A stretch of DNA of 12,346 bases from Verrucomicrobiales bacterium (GTDB lineage: Bacteria; Verrucomicrobiota; Verrucomicrobiia; Verrucomicrobiales; DEV007), in NCBI GenBank assembly GCA_023253615.1, contig JALRFZ010000292.1:1-12346 (forward strand), given 5' to 3'. The notes under the pieces were generated by a model, which had not been told where the DNA came from, searched no databases, and was given only the letters and a program-made list of their open reading frames with translations. Positions within the stretch are counted from its first letter, which is position 1. Each line of letters begins with the position of its first letter. A program made the position numbers and the translations under genes. Shown here piece by piece: positions 2,445 to 12,346 of this stretch.

Positions 2445-3296
2445 ATGACCTCCCGCTTCGCCCCCAGCCCGACCGGCCAGCTCCACAAAGGCCACGCCTT
2501 TTCGGCGTTGACCGCTTTCGCCCTGGCCCGGCGCTCCGGCGGCCGCTTTTTGCTGCGCATCGAGGACATCGATCCGACGCGCTGCACGCGCGAAAACGCG
2601 GAACAGATTTTCGAAGACCTCGCCTGGCTCGGGATCGAATGGGAAACCCCCGTCCGTTTCCAGAGCGAACATCGCGCCGACTTCGCCGCCGCGGCCGACC
2701 GGCTCGCCGCCCGGGGGCTGCTTTATCCCTGCTTCTGCACCCGCAGCGACATCCAGCGCGAGATCGAACGCGCCGGCCACGCCCCCCACGGCAGCGAAGG
2801 CCCGCTCTACCCCGGCACCTGCCGCCGCCTCTCCGGCGACGAACGCGCGGCCCGCCTCGCCGCCGGCACGCCCCACGCCCTCCGTCTCGATCTCGAAAAG
2901 GCCCTTTCCCTCGCCGGACCCGGACTCACCTGGACCGACACCCATCAAGGCGTCCAGCCCGCCCGCCCCGGACTCCTCGGCGACGCCGTCCTCGTCCGCA
3001 AGGACATCGGCACCAGCTACCACCTCGCCGTCGTCGTCGATGACGGGCTCCAGGGGATCACCGACATTGTCCGCGGCGTCGATCTTTTCGAGGCGACCCA
3101 TCTCCACCGGCTCCTTCAGGAAATGCTCGGACTGCCCGTGCCCCTCTATCACCACCACGGACTCCTCACCGATGCCTCGGGCAACCGCCTCGCCAAGCGT
3201 GACCGGGCCGTCACTCTGAAAAGTCTTCGCGAAAGCGGCGTCCGCGCCCGGGACCTGAAAAAGGAGCTCGGATTCCCGGAAGACTTCGCGGTCTGA
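2445..3296 (+). CDS. gluQ: Glutamyl-Q tRNA(Asp) synthetase
   Basis: This 283-residue protein is a paralogue of glutamyl-tRNA synthetase without the anticodon-binding domain. In the family it activates glutamate with ATP and attaches it to queuosine-34 of tRNA(Asp), so it modifies the anticodon rather than charging the 3' end. The start (S-R-F-A-P-S-P-T-G, 3-11) and the HIGH-like H14-K-G-H17 are intact. The K-M-S-K-S-like loop reads R248-L-A-K-R. The expected zinc site is C96, C98, Y122 and C126. The short length and the zinc cluster separate it from full GltX (about 470 residues). Activity implies that the host makes or salvages queuosine; no queuosine gene is in view. The ATG at 2445 is favoured because only two residues precede the conserved block. 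No Shine-Dalgarno sequence is seen. The next gene on the same strand is 103 bp downstream. Confidence 0.93.
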   Translation: MTSRFAPSPTGQLHKGHAFSALTAFALARRSGGRFLLRIEDIDPTRCTRENAEQIFEDLAWLGIEWETPVRFQSEHRADFAAAADRLAARGLLYPCFCTRSDIQREIERAGHAPHGSEGPLYPGTCRRLSGDERAARLAAGTPHALRLDLEKALSLAGPGLTWTDTHQGVQPARPGLLGDAVLVRKDIGTSYHLAVVVDDGLQGITDIVRGVDLFEATHLHRLLQEMLGLPVPLYHHHGLLTDASGNRLAKRDRAVTLKSLRESGVRARDLKKELGFPEDFAV

Positions 3297-3399: not shown

Positions 3400-4227
3400 A
3401 TGAGCTTCCGCCTGCCCCACGAAGACAGCCCCCTCGACGCCCCGCCCCTCGCCGACATGTCCGCGATTCTCGTAGTCGATGAAGATCCGGCCTTCCAGCT
3501 CGGTTTGAAGACATTTCTCCGCGAATACGTGGGATTTGAAAAAGTCTTCACCGCCCGCAGCGGTCAGGAGGCGCTCGATTTCATCCGTGCGGAACCTTCC
3601 ATCGAGGTGGTGACGCTCGACTACCGCATGCCGGGCATGAACGGCATCGAAGTCCTCGAGGCACTGCGCGGCCAGACGGCTCGGCCGCTCGCGGTGCTGA
3701 TGATCACGGGGTATGCCTCGGAGGAGCTCGAGGCGGAGTTCCGCGCCCAGGGTGGCGAACTGATCCTGACCACCCACTTTCTGACCAAGCCGGTGCAATT
3801 CGAGAAACTCGAGCCCGTGGTGCTCGCCGCCCATGAGGAAGTCCTCGCCACGAAACGCCGGCTCCACGAACGGGCCATGGCCGCCGCGGCAGAGCTCGCG
3901 CTGGCGGAGTCGGGTGCCATGGAGGCGCAGGCCGATGCCGCCCCCGTCTCCGGCGACCTCGGGTCGCGTCTCGAAGCCCAGGGCGAGCGCATCGCGGCCG
4001 TGGAGCAGGAACTTCGCGCCCAGCGCGGCAAGTGGCGGGCCGATTTCTGGCGTGTCACGGCGTTGCTGTTGCTCATCTGGCTGGCGGGTCAATTCGGTCT
4101 CCTCGCACCTCTCGCCCCGCGATGGGCATCGTTCAAAGCCGGGGTCATCGAGCGGGTCGAGGGGTGGAAACAATCCCTCTCCGCCCCCCCCGCGGCCCCC
4201 GCGGAAACTCCCGGCGAAGCGCTCTGA
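3400..4227 (+). CDS. Response-regulator receiver protein with coiled coil and C-terminal membrane helix
   Basis: This 275-residue protein has a REC domain at about 21-145 with all key residues: the acidic cluster D27/D29, phospho-acceptor D74 within [10 protein letters not shown], switch T103 (M-I-T-G-Y-A) and K130-P131. It therefore should accept phosphate from a histidine kinase. A charged, Ala-rich helical stretch, probably coiled coil, runs from about 145 to 212. One hydrophobic segment follows at about 216-240 ([14 protein letters not shown]), then a short tail ending in a Pro/Ala-rich stretch. No DNA-binding, cyclase or phosphodiesterase output domain is present. A tail-anchored REC protein is unusual and suggests signalling at the membrane by protein contact. 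No kinase is in the window. Met20, just before the REC domain, is an alternative start. The RNA ligase gene begins 44 bp downstream, so co-transcription is possible. Confidence 0.88.
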
Positions 4228-4271: not shown

Positions 4272-5012
4272 ATGGGAGCGACCAGAGACCATTTCGTCAA
4301 ATACCCGCGCACCCCGCATCTTTCCGGATCGCGGGGTACGGACGATGACAAGCATCTCGGCGCGAAGGCCTCGGCGGCCTTCCTCGCGGATCCGTCACTG
4401 ATCGTCGAGGAGAAGCTCGACGGCACGCACGTCGGGATCCAGTTCCTCGCGGACGGCCGCCTTTTCCTGCAATGCCGCGGGCATGAGATCACCGAGGGGA
4501 TGCATCCGCAGTATGATCTTTTCAAACAATGGGCCGCGGTGAAACGCCCCGTGCTGGAGACGATGCTGGCGGACCGGTATCTGCTCTTCGGCGAATGGCT
4601 CCACGCGAAACACAGCGTCTTCTACACCCGGCTGCCGCACTACTTTTTCGAATTCGACGTGTATGACAAGGCGGAGAGCGTCTTTCTGCCGCTCGCGCGG
4701 CGGCTCGCCCTGCTCGAGGGCACCGGGATCGCGACGGTGCCGGTGATCCAACGGGGCCCGCTGCGCGAGGAAAGCCTCGAAGCGCTGATCGGCGAATCGG
4801 CTTTCGGCGCGGTGTTCGAGAATCCCCTCACCGGAGCGGCGGACGCGCGCATGGAGGGCCTCTATCTGAGGACCGAATCGGACCGGGCGGTGACCGGCCG
4901 GGCAAAGAAGGTGCGTCCCGAATTTGTCGAACGGGTAAAACAAAGCGAACATTGGCAGCACCGCACCATGGTGCCGAACGAACTCGCCGCCGGGGCGGAT
5001 CTCTGGTCATGA
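4272..5012 (+). CDS. ATP-dependent RNA ligase (nucleotidyltransferase family, Rnl2-like)
   Basis: This 246-residue protein has the ordered motifs of covalent nucleotidyltransferase ligases: motif I E47-K48-L-D-G51 with K48 as the AMP-accepting lysine, motif III F-G-E108-W-L, motif IIIa Y-F-F-E-F-D (124-129), motif IV E195-G-L-Y-L-R, and motif V around A-K-K-V-R (211-215). Ligases of this family join 5'-phosphate and 3'-OH ends through an enzyme-AMP and then an AMP-RNA intermediate. Only about 30 residues follow motif V, so this is close to a bare catalytic domain and may rely on a partner for RNA binding. The frame is open back to 4032, inside the REC gene, but recognisable sequence begins right after the ATG at 4272. 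Its stop overlaps the HD-Pnk start (ATGA, 5009-5012), showing translational coupling with the enzyme that would prepare its ends. RNA rather than DNA as substrate is inferred from the family and partner. Confidence 0.88.
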
Positions 5013-6133
5013 AAACGGTATCCAACGCCTGGCCGGACCTCGTCTCCGGGAACGACGACGACCTCCTCGCGTGGGCCGCGGAGCAACCGTGGGCGGAGGC
5101 GATGCGCCGATGCGCCCAGGATGCGGTGTGGCATCCCGAAGGCGACGTGTGGACGCACACGGCGATGGTCTTCGACGAGGTGCGCCGGCTCGACGGCTAT
5201 GACGCACTGCCCCGGAGGGAGCAGCTCGACCTGCTCTTCACCGCCCTGCTCCACGACAGCGGCAAGCCGGCGACGACGGCTCCGGATCCGGAGACGGGGC
5301 GCCTGCGTTCGCCGAGGCATTCCCTCGCCGGCGCCCGGCTCGCCCGCGAGGTGCTGCGCGAGGCCGGCTGCCCTTTGCGGGAACGGGAAACGATCGTCTC
5401 GCTCGTCCGCCACCACGGACGTCCGCCCCACCTTCTCGAAGCGGCGAAGCCCGAGCACGAGGTGATCCGCCTCTCCACGATCCTGACGAACCGACAACTG
5501 CACCGCTTCGCCGTGGCGGACACGCGCGGCCGCGACCGGAACGACGACTCGCGTCCCGAGGAGGCGCTGCACCTCTGGCGCGACCTCGCCGCGGAGCTCG
5601 GGTGCCTCGACGGCCCCTATCGTTTCACGAACGACCAGGCGCGCTTCCTCTTCCACCGGGACACCCTGACAAGCCTCCATTACGTGCCCCACGAATCGTG
5701 GCCGTGTACGGTGACGATGATGAGCGGGCTGCCGGGCGCGGGCAAGGACACGTGGCTGGCCCGGCACCGGCCGGATCTGCCGGTGATCTCGCTCGACGGC
5801 CTCCGCGAGGAGCTCGAGATCGCTCCGGAAAAGAACCAGGGCCGCGTCGCCCAGGCCGCTAAGGCGCGCTGCCAGGAATGGCTCGCGGCGGGGACTTCCT
5901 TCGCGTTCAACGCGACGAACCTGACCGCTCCGATGCGGGGCCGCTGGATCGATCTCTTCGCGGCCTACGGAGCCCGCGTCGAGATCGTCTACCTCGAGCC
6001 ACCGCTCGACACGCTGCTCCGGCAGAACCGGGATCGCGGGGCGGCGGTGCCGGAATCGGTCATGAACCGCCTCCTCGAAAAACTCGAGGTGCCGACCGCG
6101 GCGGAGGCGCACGAGGTGACCTGGATCGGATGA
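5009..6133 (+). CDS. HD-Pnk: HD-domain 2',3'-phosphoesterase fused to polynucleotide 5'-kinase
   Basis: This 374-residue, two-domain end-healing enzyme resembles Runella slithyformis HD-Pnk. The HD domain (about 35-195) shows the metal-site pattern H50, H82-D83, H104, H135-H136 and D171. In the characterised enzyme this domain removes 2',3'-cyclic phosphate and 3'-phosphate. The kinase domain (about 232-374) has the P-loop G240-L-P-G-A-G-K246-D-T, then S-L-D263-G-L-R266, then N-A-T-N (301-304) with R310, and a basic lid R338-Q-N-R-D-R343. It should phosphorylate 5'-OH ends from an NTP. The residue after the P-loop lysine is Asp, not the usual Ser/Thr; Thr248 follows. The ATG at 5009 is chosen because it overlaps the ligase stop by 4 nt; the frame stays open further upstream but adds nothing recognisable. 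A G-C-rich hairpin lies just after the stop. Function is inferred from the family and operon. Confidence 0.88.
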
Positions 6134-6235: not shown

Positions 6236-6628
6236 ATGAATCACGACTCCCAGGATCCTGTTTCCCCCGATCCCACTCCTGCCCCCAAAACGACGCAGGA
6301 AAAGCTCGATGAACTTTCCAACACGCTGACCGAGGCCATCCTCAAGGGTGGCCGCGATGCGAAGCGAGCCTTCGAGGATGGGATGCCGAAGGTGAAGAGC
6401 GAATTCACCAAGGGACTCCACGACGTCGCCTACGCGGTCGGTTTTGCCGCGACCTTCGGGGCCACCTTGCTGCGCGAAGCCACTCCCGACGCCCTCCGCG
6501 ACGGTCTGCGCAACGGTGCCGCCTCGGGCCGGAAAGCCGCCGACGAGGTGATGCGCCAGCGTCGTGAAAAAGCGGAGCGCGAGGCCAAGGCCGAAGCCAC
6601 GGAAGACACCGGCGGCGCCTGGGCGTGA
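6236..6628 (+). CDS. Small mostly helical protein of unknown function (130 aa)
   Basis: I do not recognise this protein. Residues 1-20 are rich in Pro, Asp and Thr and probably disordered. Residues 21-60 look like an amphipathic helix with many Lys, Asp and Glu. Residues 64-79 (starting V-A-Y-A-V-G-F-A) are small and hydrophobic, either a short membrane-inserting or a helix-packing segment. Residues 95-122 form a strongly charged helix (R-Q-R-R-E-K-A-E-R-E), plausibly coiled coil. There is no signal peptide and no cysteine. The overall look recalls phasin-like or membrane-surface helical proteins, but that is only resemblance. It lies 102 bp after the HD-Pnk gene, with a hairpin and a possible -10 box between, so it may be transcribed separately. 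It converges on the M16 peptidase gene with 28 bp between them. Codon use fits the neighbours, so it is probably a real gene. Confidence 0.72.
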   Translation: MNHDSQDPVSPDPTPAPKTTQEKLDELSNTLTEAILKGGRDAKRAFEDGMPKVKSEFTKGLHDVAYAVGFAATFGATLLREATPDALRDGLRNGAASGRKAADEVMRQRREKAEREAKAEATEDTGGAWA

Positions 6629-6656: not shown

Positions 6657-9197
6657 CTATCGCGTCAGCCGCACGATCACCCGGTTGTCCTCGCGGAGAT
6701 GCCGTGCGGCGGCGGCGCGGACGGCCTCGCGCGTGAGCGCGGCGACCGTCGCCGGAGTCTTGCGGTAATGATCCCAGCCGAGCCCGACGAGCTCGTCCAC
6801 CGTGGCGGTCGAGGCAAGCTCGCGCACGCCCTGAAGATGGATGGCTTCGCGCCCCAGCCATGAGGCCTTGGCCCGATCGAACTCCTCTTCTCCGAGCCCT
6901 TCGCGCACGATCAGATCGATCTCTGCGAGCATCTCTTCCTGCACGAGATCGAGCTTCTCCGGTGCGGTCGATGCATAAAAAACGAGGAATCCCGGCTCGA
7001 GCCCGACGAGGCGGCTCGCTCCGACCGAATAGGCCAGCCCGAGCTCCTCGCGGATGCGGATGAAAAGGCGCGATGCCATGTCGCTGCACGCCTCGTCGAT
7101 CATCTCGAGGGCGGGATTGTCGGGATGGGTGAGATCGACGGTGCGATAGCCGATGAGGAGCACGGCCTGTTCTTTTTCGTGCGTCAACTCCACGGTGCCG
7201 GCGTAGTCCGTCGGCAGCACGAACGATCCCGCCGCACAGACGCGCGGACCGGCTTCGAGGGTATGCTCGAAACGCGACCGGATCATCGCCTCGGCTTTTG
7301 CCGGATCGAGATCACCGAAGACTCCGACGACCCCGTTTCCTCCCACGAGGAGGCGGCGGTGCATCGCCACAAGTGATCCGCGATCGAGCCCGCCGATCGA
7401 CGCGACCGTGCCGCCGGACTCGAGTCCATAGGGATGATCGCCGTAGAGGCGCTTCCGCAGGGCTTTCATCGCCACGGTGAACGGACGGTCGGCTTCGGCC
7501 TTGATCTGGGAAAGCTGGAAGGTCTTTTCCCGATCGACCGTCTCATCGAGGAAGGCGGGCTCGAGCAGCGTCTCGCCCAACAAATCGACGACACGCTCGA
7601 GGTCGGGACGCAGGGCATGGACGGAGACGCCGAAGGAATTGTTGCCCGTGTTCGCCCCGATGCCGCCGCCGACCGATTCGATCCCGAGGGCGAGCTCCTC
7701 GGCGCTGCGCTTCAAGGTGTCCTTGGTGAGGAGTCGCGACATCAGGCGCGTGATCCCCGCGGTGGCCGCGGATTCGGCGAGCAGTCCACCGCGGAAGACC
7801 CCGCTCGCCTGCACGAAGGGCACGCGGTGATCGGGGAGGATCAGCACGGTGAGCCCGTTCGAAAGTTCGATCTTGCGGATGTCCTCCGACCGCTTCGCGG
7901 TGCCGGACCGCGATGCCTTCACCGGGCGCTCCGGCAGCAGCGCGACGGACGTCATGCGATCGGGATGCAGCCAGGTCGCGGCGATCTCGCGCACCGCTTC
8001 GCAACCGACGCGCTGCACGGCCTCGACATAATCCCGCGTCAGATCGGGATGACGGGCGAGGAGCCAGTTCGCCCCGATGTCGGAGGCCTGTCCGCGCATG
8101 TCGGTGAAGGTCGAGAACTGCGCGCCGAGGACCTGGCGCCTCGCCTTTTCGATCTCGCGTTCGCTGACACCCTCCTCGCGGATGCGGGCGACCTCGCGCA
8201 GGGCCGCTTCCCGGGCGGCCGCGGCTTTGCCGGGTTCCGTGTCGAAGCTGATGCCGAACTGGCCGGCGAAGGAGGGAGTGTAGGCCCAAGCCCCGATGGA
8301 ATGGGCGAGCTGCCCCTTTTCACGCACCGACTGGAAGAGGCGCGAACTGCGTCCATCGCCGAGGATGCCCGCCAGCAGATCGATCGCGGGCACGGAGGGA
8401 TCGAGCCCGTCGGGGATCTGCCAGGCGAGGCGTTCGCGGTGCAGCTCGGTGGGAAAGGCGGTCTCCTCGTGGCGGGGACCGCGCTGGGGAGGCTCGGCCG
8501 GCAGGATCAGCGGCGGGCGGCGGCGCCGGGCGTGACCACCGAGTTTTTCGCCGATCTTCGCGATGATCCCGTCCGCATCCACATCGCCCACCACGACAAA
8601 AAAGAGATTGTCGGGCGAATACCGCTGGCGGTAGTAGGCGTGGAGATCGTCGCGATGGAGTTGGTTGAAGAGATCGAGATACCCGATCACCGGATGGCGG
8701 CAGGGATGCTCGATGTAGGCGGTGCGGAAAAAGAGTTTGCTCAGCACCTGATCGGGATTGTCCTCGCCCATCGCAATCTCGCGGCGGATCACGTCGCTCT
8801 CGTTCGCGAATTCATCCTCCGGGATGGTGGCGTCGCCGACGACATCGCAGAGCACGTCGAGACAAGTCATCGCGCCCGCGGAAGGCGCGTCGATCCAGTA
8901 GACGGTGCGGTCGAAGGAGGTGTAGGCATTGATGTAACCTCCCTGGGCCTGTACCGTCTGCGCGATCTGGTTCGCATCGCGGCCGCCCGCCCCCTTGAAG
9001 AGCATGTGCTCGAGGAAATGCGAGACACCCGCGCCGAGCCAGTCGCCCTCGTGGATGCTGCCGGACCGGCACCAGGCCTGCAGGCTCACGACCGGGGCGG
9101 ACGGATCCTCGCGAACGAGGATCTCGAGGCCGTTCGGGAGCGTCTCCACCCGGACCTCGAAGGAAGGGAAATGCAGCGCCTCGGATTCCGCGCTCAA
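6657..9197 (-). CDS. M16 (insulinase/processing-peptidase type) tandem-domain metallopeptidase
   Basis: This 846-residue protein is built from two M16 halves. The first (about 13-420) is catalytic: inverted zinc motif H60-F-L-E63-H64 with the third ligand at E140, in V-I-R-R-E-I. The second (about 435-846) repeats the fold (S-N-G-L-T-V-L-I-L near 440) but has no HxxEH, as in the inactive partner half of this family. The R-E-K-G-Q-L-A-H-S and R-E-E-L-G-L-A-Y-S segments are the matching C-lobe motifs of the two halves. M16 enzymes close over and degrade unfolded or short peptides. No signal peptide is visible, so a cytoplasmic site is likely, unlike many periplasmic homologues. The start is TTG at 9197, overlapping the TGA of the upstream Minf_1886 gene (TTGA, 9197-9194). 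No in-frame ATG lies before the conserved region. Translational coupling to that gene is likely. Confidence 0.92.
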   Translation of the reverse strand: MSAESEALHFPSFEVRVETLPNGLEILVREDPSAPVVSLQAWCRSGSIHEGDWLGAGVSHFLEHMLFKGAGGRDANQIAQTVQAQGGYINAYTSFDRTVYWIDAPSAGAMTCLDVLCDVVGDATIPEDEFANESDVIRREIAMGEDNPDQVLSKLFFRTAYIEHPCRHPVIGYLDLFNQLHRDDLHAYYRQRYSPDNLFFVVVGDVDADGIIAKIGEKLGGHARRRRPPLILPAEPPQRGPRHEETAFPTELHRERLAWQIPDGLDPSVPAIDLLAGILGDGRSSRLFQSVREKGQLAHSIGAWAYTPSFAGQFGISFDTEPGKAAAAREAALREVARIREEGVSEREIEKARRQVLGAQFSTFTDMRGQASDIGANWLLARHPDLTRDYVEAVQRVGCEAVREIAATWLHPDRMTSVALLPERPVKASRSGTAKRSEDIRKIELSNGLTVLILPDHRVPFVQASGVFRGGLLAESAATAGITRLMSRLLTKDTLKRSAEELALGIESVGGGIGANTGNNSFGVSVHALRPDLERVVDLLGETLLEPAFLDETVDREKTFQLSQIKAEADRPFTVAMKALRKRLYGDHPYGLESGGTVASIGGLDRGSLVAMHRRLLVGGNGVVGVFGDLDPAKAEAMIRSRFEHTLEAGPRVCAAGSFVLPTDYAGTVELTHEKEQAVLLIGYRTVDLTHPDNPALEMIDEACSDMASRLFIRIREELGLAYSVGASRLVGLEPGFLVFYASTAPEKLDLVQEEMLAEIDLIVREGLGEEEFDRAKASWLGREAIHLQGVRELASTATVDELVGLGWDHYRKTPATVAALTREAVRAAAARHLREDNRVIVRLTR

Positions 9198-10058: not shown

Positions 10059-11098
10059 GTCCTCACCTCCCCCGCCCGCGGCGCGGTGGCCTCGAAGCCG
10101 CGCCGCCCCTCCACGAAGAAAAGGGCCGCCGCCGCCAGCTCGAGATAGCCGTGGAAAAGCGCCATGCGCAGATAGCCGGCCCTCGCCTCGACGAGATCGA
10201 CGACCGCCCAGACCGCGAGCCCCGCGATGAGGATCACCGATCCCATGAGCAAAGCGGGGCCGAAATCCCTTTCGAGGGCGCGGTAGCTCGCGGCGAAAGT
10301 CCGCGGGGTCGGCTGGGGCCGGTCCTCCTCGGGAATGAGCCGCAGCCAGATCCCGTAATGGACTGCCTGGGCGAAGGCGAAGAGGAGCACGAGCCGGAGC
10401 CCCCATGGTTCGGCGAGACCGGGAGCGAGTTGACCGAGATGGTATTCGTCGCCCAGCCCCGGAGGCATCCACGCGGCAGTGACGTCCCACGGTGCCGCCC
10501 ACCCCCACCAGAGAGCGGCTCCGGCGAGGAAAAAGAAGGCCGGCACTCCGAGGCGCCACCACCCCGACACCGGTCTCCAGCACCACCAGAGGACGAGGGC
10601 GATGAAATTGTGGGCATGGGCGAAGACCAGCAGGGAGAGGCTCCCCGCCATCAAGCTGACGACGACGAGAGCCGCGCAGATCGCGATGATGACCGCTTTT
10701 TTCCACCATCCACCCCGCGCGAGCAGGGCCGCCATGGCCGCTGCGACGAGACCCGCCTCCACCGGATACCATCCCGCGCCGGCGACGACGAGGGGCAGCC
10801 CCACGCCGATGACGAGCCCGGCACGATGATGGAGGCGGGGGCGCAACACGAGATAGCGGAGGTCGGAAAGCACATGCGGGATCCCCCAGACGATCGGCCC
10901 GAGCGCCAGCAGCCAGAACGGAGCGAAAATCGTCAGAAGGAATGCCGCGGCCACGACGAGGCACCCGCCCGCGAGCACCCGCGCCTCGCGACGCCTGACA
11001 AAAAACCGCGCCGGAGCCCCCGCGAGGCGCAGCGCGCGCAGCCGCACCCGGTCGAGCGGCCGGGCCACTCCGTTGGCAATGTGGGAAAGAACGGTCAC
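10055..11098 (-). CDS. Polytopic membrane protein with conserved-looking His motifs, possibly Brp/Blh-like
   Basis: This 347-residue protein has about eight to ten hydrophobic segments between residues 40 and 330. Histidines sit at or near helix ends in several: G72-I-P-H75-V-L-S-D79, H161-A-H163-N, Q244-A-V-H247-Y and F-H316-G-Y-L-E320. G-I-P-H-x3-D recalls the G-x-P-H-G-x-x-D motif of the Brp/Blh beta-carotene 15,15'-dioxygenase family, whose members bind iron through histidines on several helices. The match is short, so a Brp/Blh-type role in making retinal is only a hypothesis; another membrane metal- or heme-binding enzyme is equally possible. A basic N-terminal stretch (R14-R40) favours a cytoplasmic N-terminus. 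The start is GTG at 11098, overlapping the sulfatase stop (GTGA). Its stop overlaps the next membrane-protein ATG. Operon membership with both is therefore strong. Confidence 0.8.
10063..10070 (-). promoter_or_regulatory. Strong Shine-Dalgarno sequence of the 4-helix membrane protein gene
   Basis: Reading leftwards, GGAGGTGA is followed by 4 nt (GGAC) and the ATG at 10058. It is complementary to the 16S rRNA 3' end over eight bases. It lies inside the last codons of the upstream gene. Most other genes here have no such motif, which makes this one stand out and confirms the start. Confidence 0.8.
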
Positions 11099-12346
11099 GG
11101 GAGGGCCTTCGCATTTTCCTTCGATTTCGCCTTCTCCTTTTGCCCGCCCTTGCCCTGTCCTTTGTTCCCTTTCCCCTTGGGCCTTTCGACGAGAGGCCAG
11201 TCGGGATGATCGACACGCGAGGCGGCCATGAGGACCGCGGCTCTTGTTACTTTGTCAGGGTGGGCCGGGGCGAGGTCCTTCGATTCCGCGGCATCGGTGG
11301 AGAGATCGTAGAGCTCCACCGGCGCGTCGGGTCCGTTTTTCACCGCCTTCCAATGCCCGTCGAACCGCACCGCCTGGATCGAGGTGCCTTCGTGCAGCTC
11401 CCAATAGAAGGATTCACGCTCGGGCGCCTTGCCTCCTTTGAGCAGCGCCGTCACATCAACGCCGTCGAAAGCCGCGCCATCGGGCAGGCTCGCACCGGCC
11501 AGTGCGGCGGCGGTCGGCAAATAATCCCAGAAGGCCCATGGCTCCTCCGAGACCGCCCCGGCCGGCACCTGCCCGGGCCAGCGTGCGATGCCCGCCTGAC
11601 GCAGGGCACCCTCGTAGAGCCCCCGCTTGTAGCCGCGCAGCTTGCCACCCATGTCCTGGTCGAAGAGCCGGCCCACTTCCGACCCGGGATCGAAAGACGC
11701 CCCGTTGTCGCCTGAGAATACCACGATGGTGTTTTCGTCGATTTTCAGATCGTCGAGCAAAGCCATGAGACGGCCGACATCACTGTCGAGGCGGCTCACC
11801 ATCGCGGCATAGGTCTTCTGCAGGTCCGTCCACGGTTTGTCGGCGTAGATTCCGAGCTCGTCGATCTCGAATTTGCCGTGCGGCAGGGTGATGGCGTAGA
11901 AGAGGAAAAAGGGCCCCGCCGCATTCGCCCGCACCCACTTCTCGACATCCTGCTGGATCAGTTCCTGGGCGTAGGTCTTGCCGTCGAGATCGATGCGCTG
12001 GTCATCGTTCCAGAGATACTTGGGAAAGTAGCTGTGGGCGTGGCGCTGGCAGTTGTAGCCGTAGAAATGATCGAAGCCCTTTTTCAGCGGACTGCCGCTC
12101 GTGTCGAACATGCCCATGCCCCACTTTCCCATGCAGGCCGTCGCATAGCCGGCGGATTTCAGCACCTGCGCGACCGTGATCGTTTTCTCCGGCAGCGGCT
12201 TCTGGCCCTCGGGCTGGATCTCGCGGTTCGCCCGGATCGGACAATGCCCGGTATGCAGTCCGGTCATGAGCGAGGCCCGCGATGGCGCGCACACGCTGGT
12301 GCCGGAATAGAGCTGGGGAAAGCGCGTCCCCTCCGCCGCCATGCGG
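11095..12346 (-). CDS. S1-family sulfatase, N-terminus beyond window
   Basis: About 416 codons are present; the gene continues past the right edge, so the signal peptide and first metal ligands are not seen. Numbering from the Met at 12342, the active-site motif C18-A-P-S-R22 is there; in this family an anaerobic or FGE-type maturase converts the Cys to formylglycine. Other active-site candidates are K73 (G-K-W-G), H155 (L-P-H), D212-N213 (G-D-N-G) and K239 (G-Y-K-R). The usual H of G-K-W-H is Gly here, as in a sulfatase subfamily that also has G-Y-x-x-Q-R-x-A-H-x-Y-x-P. The enzyme should release sulfate from a sulfated glycan or ester; the substrate cannot be read. The last 30 residues are a Lys/Gly-rich tail ([10 protein letters not shown]). 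The Met at 12342 is internal (R-M-A-A-E-G), not the start. The stop overlaps the next gene's GTG. Confidence 0.92.

Follow-up and report, generated by a model that had tools for sequence, protein, structure and literature searches.

An overlapping RNA ligase and HD-Pnk gene pair in Verrucomicrobiales: a PARG-free member of the Deinococcus-type operon and a candidate heal-and-seal cassette

A stretch of 12,346 nucleotides from the Verrucomicrobiales contig JALRFZ010000292.1 (hereafter the window) carries two overlapping genes, one for an ATP-dependent RNA ligase family protein and one for an HD-Pnk, which joins an HD phosphohydrolase domain to a polynucleotide-kinase-type domain. The pairing is real, widespread and conserved, and we propose, with a probability of roughly 0.68, that the two genes form a cassette that heals and seals broken polynucleotides, most probably those of RNA. 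The HD domain would open and remove a 2',3'-cyclic phosphate (or remove a 3'-phosphate) to leave a 3'-OH, the kinase domain would phosphorylate the 5'-OH, and the ligase, AMP-charged on Lys48, would activate the 5'-phosphate and then seal the break, working in a putative complex with HD-Pnk or with some other partner that brings the RNA. Such a cassette would probably serve to rescue tRNAs and other RNAs that metal-independent ribonucleases have cut, with stress or conflict as the presumed trigger. The window pair is a PARG-free member of the known Deinococcus-type operon: a good new example, and not a new kind of system.

Layout, domains and motifs of the pair

4272-5012, + strand: ligase gene; 246 amino acids (aa), ATP-dependent RNA ligase family protein (PF09414), nucleotidyltransferase domain only
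5009-6133, + strand: HD-Pnk gene; 374 aa, N-terminal HD phosphohydrolase domain and C-terminal polynucleotide-kinase-type P-loop domain
5009-5012, + strand: ATGA start/stop overlap of the two genes, 4 bp
Ligase motif residues: K48-x-D-G, R69, E108, E195-G196, K212, R215
HD domain residues of HD-Pnk: His50, His82-Asp83, His104, His136, Asp171
Kinase domain residues of HD-Pnk: GLPGAGKDT 240-248, Asp263, Arg266, Thr303, Arg310, Arg343

The original prediction had described a K48-x-D-G ligase and an HD/P-loop enzyme encoded by genes that overlap by ATGA, and the open reading frames (ORFs) and Pfam matches bear this out. The ligase matches PF09414 RNA_ligase (E = 1.1e-31, 110.7 bits against a cut-off of 27), and HD-Pnk matches both HD (PF01966, E = 8.9e-07) and AAA_33 (E = 5.4e-22). 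Neither protein has an NCBIfam match at cut-off, the kinase half of HD-Pnk being closest there to L-seryl-tRNA(Sec) kinase, with a weaker match to Pnkp, both below cut-off. PADLOC returns nothing for the ligase and HD-Pnk merely brushes its Cas3 HD models, and the phage family phrog_6931 of PHROG, which has no assigned function, covers HD-Pnk residues 28-371, almost the whole protein.

Most of the motif residues checked are strongly conserved. Lys48, Asp50, Gly51, Glu108, Glu195 and Lys212 of the ligase, which we take to belong to nucleotidyltransferase motifs I, III, IV and V, are kept in all 48 rows of a wider ligase alignment, and Glu108 is present in 119 of the 120 nearest homologues. His50, His82, Asp83, His104, His136 and Asp171 of HD-Pnk, presumably metal-binding, are invariant in its 119 nearest homologues, with His136 replaced by Gly in 5/47 of a wider set. 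The P-loop domain also has the acceptor-site Asp/Arg and the lid Arg of a polynucleotide kinase. This architecture is like that of the Runella slithyformis HD-Pnk, which reportedly combines HD and polynucleotide-kinase domains. The bacterial Pnkp/Hen1 and Pnkp1-Rnl-Hen1 systems are likewise said to heal and seal RNA via a kinase, a phosphoesterase and an RNA ligase; the window pair resembles them in uniting healing with sealing, its HD domain presumably standing in for their calcineurin-type phosphoesterase, but no Hen1 lies beside it.

The ligase is indeed, as the same prediction held, close to a bare catalytic domain. Residues 6-221 of its predicted model align with residues 0-234 of the 317-residue chain 2hvq, whilst the window protein stops at 246; residues 5-224 align with chain residues 136-338 of 6vt9, and here just four residues lie N-terminal of the aligned region. 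The T4 Rnl2 family has an Rnl2 domain C-terminal of the nucleotidyltransferase domain. The window ligase has no such domain, nor the N-terminal domain that precedes the nucleotidyltransferase domain in Rnl5, which we take to be the Naegleria / Deinococcus DRB0094 type. Because only the nucleotidyltransferase domain is present, the ligase probably acts together with HD-Pnk or another partner.

Conservation of the pairing

As loci were gathered with HD-Pnk alone (at least 250 bits; 44 loci with the window excluded, 43 of them full-length and L041 truncated), the presence of a ligase (at least 45 bits) was not selected for. A ligase nevertheless lies upstream on the same strand in 40/44, which agrees with the earlier statement that HD-Pnk genes sit beside putative ligases. 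With the starts chosen, 37 of these 40 pairs overlap or are separated by 160 bp or less; the wider gaps are 310 bp (L007), 488 bp (L004) and 829 bp in Deinococcus radiodurans (L010), where a PARG gene intervenes. The ligase is fragmented in L031 and L041, and in L043 (4204-6804) a ligase gene stands on either side of HD-Pnk on one strand, the second being downstream. By source records and tree labels, the paired loci fall in Verrucomicrobiota, Planctomycetota, Cyanobacteriota, Bacteroidota, Actinomycetota, Pseudomonadota, Bacillota, Deinococcota, Myxococcota and Chlamydiota, and a Runella metagenome-assembled genome (MAG; L032) is among those with the pair. Since several loci are closely related, the 40 are not 40 independent events, and duplicate rows (e.g. 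L027/L030, L103/L105 and P0152/L093) were left in the counts. Two loci with a truncated HD-Pnk below 250 bits, L055 (ligase upstream) and L068 (no ligase), stand outside the 44. In 18 of 39 pairs, the window included, a start codon is so placed that the genes could overlap by the same 4 bp.

The association also holds within the window's own phylum. Among 288 genomes, a full-length HD-Pnk occurs in five (that of the window included) and a ligase adjoins it in all five, so that the search for the same pair in related genomes, which had been suggested as a check, came out in its favour; in a sixth genome (G279) the HD-Pnk is cut by the contig end and lies beside a ligase. The 278 raw matches in the phylum are mostly the HD part alone in longer proteins and do not count HD-Pnk genes. 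The ligase scan of these genomes used an alignment with one wrong row (L006, an S1 protein, dropped in later profiles), and five places below 30 bits were not counted as ligases.

The two proteins also vary together. Ligase and HD-Pnk distances correlate across 38 pairs (r = 0.55), a value reached in none of 5000 permutations (best 0.26), and the nearest neighbour is common to both proteins in 24/38; two of the 38 pairs were matched by source record and not observed side by side, and one is probably counted twice because the P0152 and L093 ligases are identical. In the ligase tree, in which metagenomic P rows are labelled by family and not by observed neighbourhood, the partners of HD-Pnk do not form one clade (10 label changes) and are present in both halves.

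The pair also occurs on contigs called viral by IMG/VR. From that resource we kept 80 loci with about 6 kb on each side; by profile, 43 of them have a full-length HD-Pnk, and 17 of these a ligase match nearby, three at only 22 bits. Among the 22 rows of at least 180 bits, 14 have a ligase, several of the 14 being near-duplicates; the ligase is downstream in L123. A survey of jumbo phages already records ligases together with kinases, and HD-like domains in a few of the phages (PMC7824862).

RNA, DNA and the Deinococcus precedent

What would such a pair act on? The fold and the RNA-enzyme context suggest RNA as the in vivo target. A search among ligase-containing proteins of about 341-1085 aa returned 18, which we treat as neighbourhood evidence and not as real fusions because several look truncated or frame-shifted. 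Among them, the ligase is joined to HD and kinase domains in P0259, to HD in P0249 (no kinase by Pfam), to a kinase in P0247, to Thg1 in P0244, to Thg1C only in P0246, to a Hen1 fragment in P0255 (TIGR04074, 195 bits, under the full-length cut-off) and to another methyltransferase in P0251 and P0258; in L023 and L097, a relative of the P0251 methyltransferase is encoded by a gene of its own directly before the ligase. Downstream of a cyanobacterial HD-Pnk, L016 (6086-9007) encodes a 974-aa protein with MJ1316, endonuclease/phosphatase, 2H phosphoesterase and poly(A) polymerase (PAP) domains, and L017 (6034-9255) has a homologue in the same place. Together, these contexts (Thg1, Hen1, MJ1316/2H/PAP) favour RNA.

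The closest published relative is the D. radiodurans operon, which, according to the original report, comprises DRB0100, a ligase-like adenylyltransferase that becomes adenylated on its motif lysine, the macro/PARG protein DRB0099, and the HD-kinase protein DRB0098, a 5'-kinase; the operon is radiation-induced (PMC1997131). We examined strain BRD125 (L010), where gene order, domains and motif led us to identify the genes with DRB0100-0098. The two enzymes, their order and strand, and the succession of HD and kinase domains are the same as in the window, and the Deinococcus ligase (LigB) is also a bare nucleotidyltransferase, of 210 aa. However, it falls in the opposite half of the ligase tree, and a PARG macrodomain gene (PF10021) separates the two genes, whereas those of the window overlap by 4 bp. 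A review states that the DRB0100 ligase shows activity only when DR_B0098 and PprA are present (PMC5128194), and another paper that PprA restores DNA end joining by the Deinococcus ligase (PMC3893189). The pair and its helper-dependent ligase are thus already in print, and the requirement for DR_B0098 and PprA supplies a precedent, on DNA, for the guess that the window ligase depends on HD-Pnk. The original interpretation is supported in part: the domains and the pairing stand, whilst RNA as target is indicated through fold and context, and the precedent for helper dependence concerns DNA. The Deinococcus ligase is reported to have given no product when first assayed alone (PMC1997131). The PARG-free pair offers a simple two-protein version of the system, present across many phyla, for finding out if HD-Pnk hands the ligase its substrate and if this is RNA or DNA. 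BRD125 also has a second 'RNA ligase (ATP)' gene (L010 7265-8080), about 2 kb from HD-Pnk on the opposite strand.

Several observations weigh against an RNA heal-and-seal cassette. In the Deinococcus report, DRB0100 alone sealed neither DNA nor RNA, the three operon proteins failed to ligate DNA however they were combined, and the 3'-phosphatase of DRB0098 is unsecured (PMC1997131). Induction by irradiation indicates DNA as much as RNA, and the positive ligation report with PprA concerns DNA, not RNA. Four of the 44 loci lack an adjacent ligase (L005, L006, L008 and L036): the first three are plasmids with ligases of the same family elsewhere on the same plasmid, and no ligase was detected in the genome of L036. 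HD-Pnk is covered over at least 80% in just one of 50,697 annotated phage records (LR756500, uncultured; L011), where a ligase lies immediately upstream. No clear enrichment of tRNA genes is seen around the pair, the raw counts being 5/48 bacterial or plasmid loci and 7/43 IMG/VR loci (three of the 22 stronger ones). RtcB offers another way of sealing RNA and occurs in 35 of the 42 genomes searched, with only an 87-bit match in the window's own genome. Finally, residue 53 of the ligase, at the end of motif I (K-x-D-G-x-N), is His (codon CAC at 4428-4430), which could weaken the window's copy.

These points feed three other explanations. Perhaps, as has been suggested for the Deinococcus LigB operon, the pair mends DNA breaks that carry a 3'-phosphate and a 5'-OH, with an end-binder like PprA bringing the ligase. 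The reports on DRB0100 and DRB0098, the radiation induction and the ligation with PprA all speak for it (PMC1997131, PMC5128194, PMC3893189), yet the ligase has the fold and Pfam family of an RNA ligase, Asn is found in motif I across the ligase family, the joined or neighbouring genes in some relatives encode RNA enzymes, and the IMG/VR-called viral contigs with both genes are consistent with tRNA repair, so that we consider DNA mending unlikely, if far from negligible. Far less probable still is that the genes are adjacent without a joint pathway, HD-Pnk healing ends for another purpose and the ligase doing something else: the three plasmids show that ligases of the family may lie away from HD-Pnk, but adjacency in 40/44 loci, the correlated distances and the proteins in which the ligase is joined to HD and kinase domains all argue otherwise.

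The remaining explanation, which we hold to be rather improbable, accepts the system and doubts the copy. Here, a damaging His53 would leave a working HD-Pnk beside a weak or dead ligase, or the base would have been misassembled. Asn53 is found in 120/120 of the nearest ligases, the 99%-identical cluster representative P0121 among them, and the source assembly is a draft in 802 contigs with 84.7% completeness; on the other side, all the remaining ligase motif residues checked are intact, and the 48 wider members have, besides 45 Asn, one Glu, one Ser and one His (the window itself) at this position. His53 may thus be a polymorphism, an assembly error or the mark of a weakened enzyme. HD-Pnk has an odd residue of its own, Gln289 (codon 5873-5875), which is Arg in 118/119 nearest homologues.

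Ligases without HD-Pnk, and the genes around the pair

Four ligases of the window's phylum that lack HD-Pnk (L098-L101) lie behind a gene for an AAA_15/DUF3696-type ATPase and a gene matching HEC-03A of PADLOC; in L099, a PADLOC run of both partners gave HEC-03B at 6.8e-126 and HEC-03A at 4.8e-30. HEC-03 is a PADLOC candidate defence system, and its third gene is usually a ligase of the window ligase's family; unlike the window pair, it has no HD-Pnk, its partners being the ATPase and a PIN-like protein. HEC-03A occurs in 5/288 genomes of the window's phylum, with the ligase adjoining in four (not in G129), in 5/247 genomes from the phylum to which G297 belongs (the Sphingobacterium genome that carries L022), again with the ligase adjoining in four, and in 12 PLSDB records, with the ligase adjoining by coordinates in eight. 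The other four PLSDB records are one from Aeromonas, in which the ligase is split in two around an insertion sequence (IS) element, and three from Acinetobacter, one of which, when inspected, had an HNH gene in the ligase's place. In all, HEC-03 usually has the ligase as its third gene, which is intact in 16 of 22 HEC-03A loci and interrupted in one more, with near-duplicates among the plasmids; the ligase loci include L098, L099, L100, L101, L200, L201, L202, L204, L206, L207 and L209. Ten of these ligases were placed in the tree and form one group (99/95) in the window ligase's half, a position known to the half only.

HEC-03A has no match in the annotated phage records or in the window's own, 84.7% complete genome. 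Its residue pattern is PIN-like; Pfam gave PIN_3 only, in two of nine proteins (E 0.12 and 0.27), and a profile search of the PDB gave no match. No description of a ligase component was found among the papers listed by text search (8 of 1,562 in the first search), mostly outside subscription journals. From these relatives it seems that a ligase of this kind can also do its work with no healing enzyme, so that the part played by end chemistry can be tested. We could speculate that ligases of the family serve as exchangeable sealing subunits, partnered according to how the broken end is chemically made: with HD-Pnk where the cut leaves a 2',3'-cyclic phosphate and a 5'-OH, and with no healer in HEC-03, whose PIN-like nuclease should leave directly sealable 5'-phosphate and 3'-OH ends. 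HEC-03 would then be a reversible cut-and-reseal, RNA-targeting defence, and the window pair a rescue arm against another class of nuclease, an idea that is tentative and, on balance, doubtful.

A third conserved operon gene was considered and rejected. Clustering of the ORFs of 51 loci (mostly about 5 kb per side) found, beyond ligase, HD-Pnk and shadow frames, no family in more than four loci, and the response-regulator gene upstream of the window pair is not beside the pair elsewhere, grouping only with two ORFs of L022 and L031 that are far from the pair. Thg1 was likewise rejected as a regular partner. Anantharaman et al. 2010 describe neighbourhoods in which Thg1 stands with a polynucleotide kinase gene and, for some bacteria, with genes for an RNA ligase and a MACRO domain (PMC2904730). 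Thg1 is present in 11 of 42 genomes searched; of the ten Thg1 loci fetched, eight have a kinase-only ORF beside Thg1 and none has a ligase of the window ligase's family there. P0244 and P0246, the only Thg1-ligase joins and both metagenomic, could be read-through gene calls. In the Rivularia MAG of L017, Hen1 (TIGR04074, above cut-off), a polynucleotide-kinase domain and Thg1 lie in line (L193 13-2190).

Within the window we found no sigma-70-like promoter, no Rfam family at gathering score and no excess of terminators (two, against a shuffle mean of 2.6). Its other features are as follows.

1-2154: partial WD40-like (PD40) repeat protein
3400-4227: response-regulator receiver domain, then a hydrophobic stretch; ends 44 bp before the ligase
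6236-6628: flanking protein without a Pfam match
6660-9197: tandem M16 peptidase
11095-12345: partial sulfatase

About 1 kb upstream of the pair, with no link to it shown, 2445-3296 encodes the tRNA-modifying tRNA glutamyl-Q(34) synthetase GluQRS (NF004315, 368 bits). Elsewhere, tRNA arrays lie near the pair in two loci, with nine genes in L003 (434-2405) and 13 in L041 (8282-9873), the latter followed by a PARG gene.
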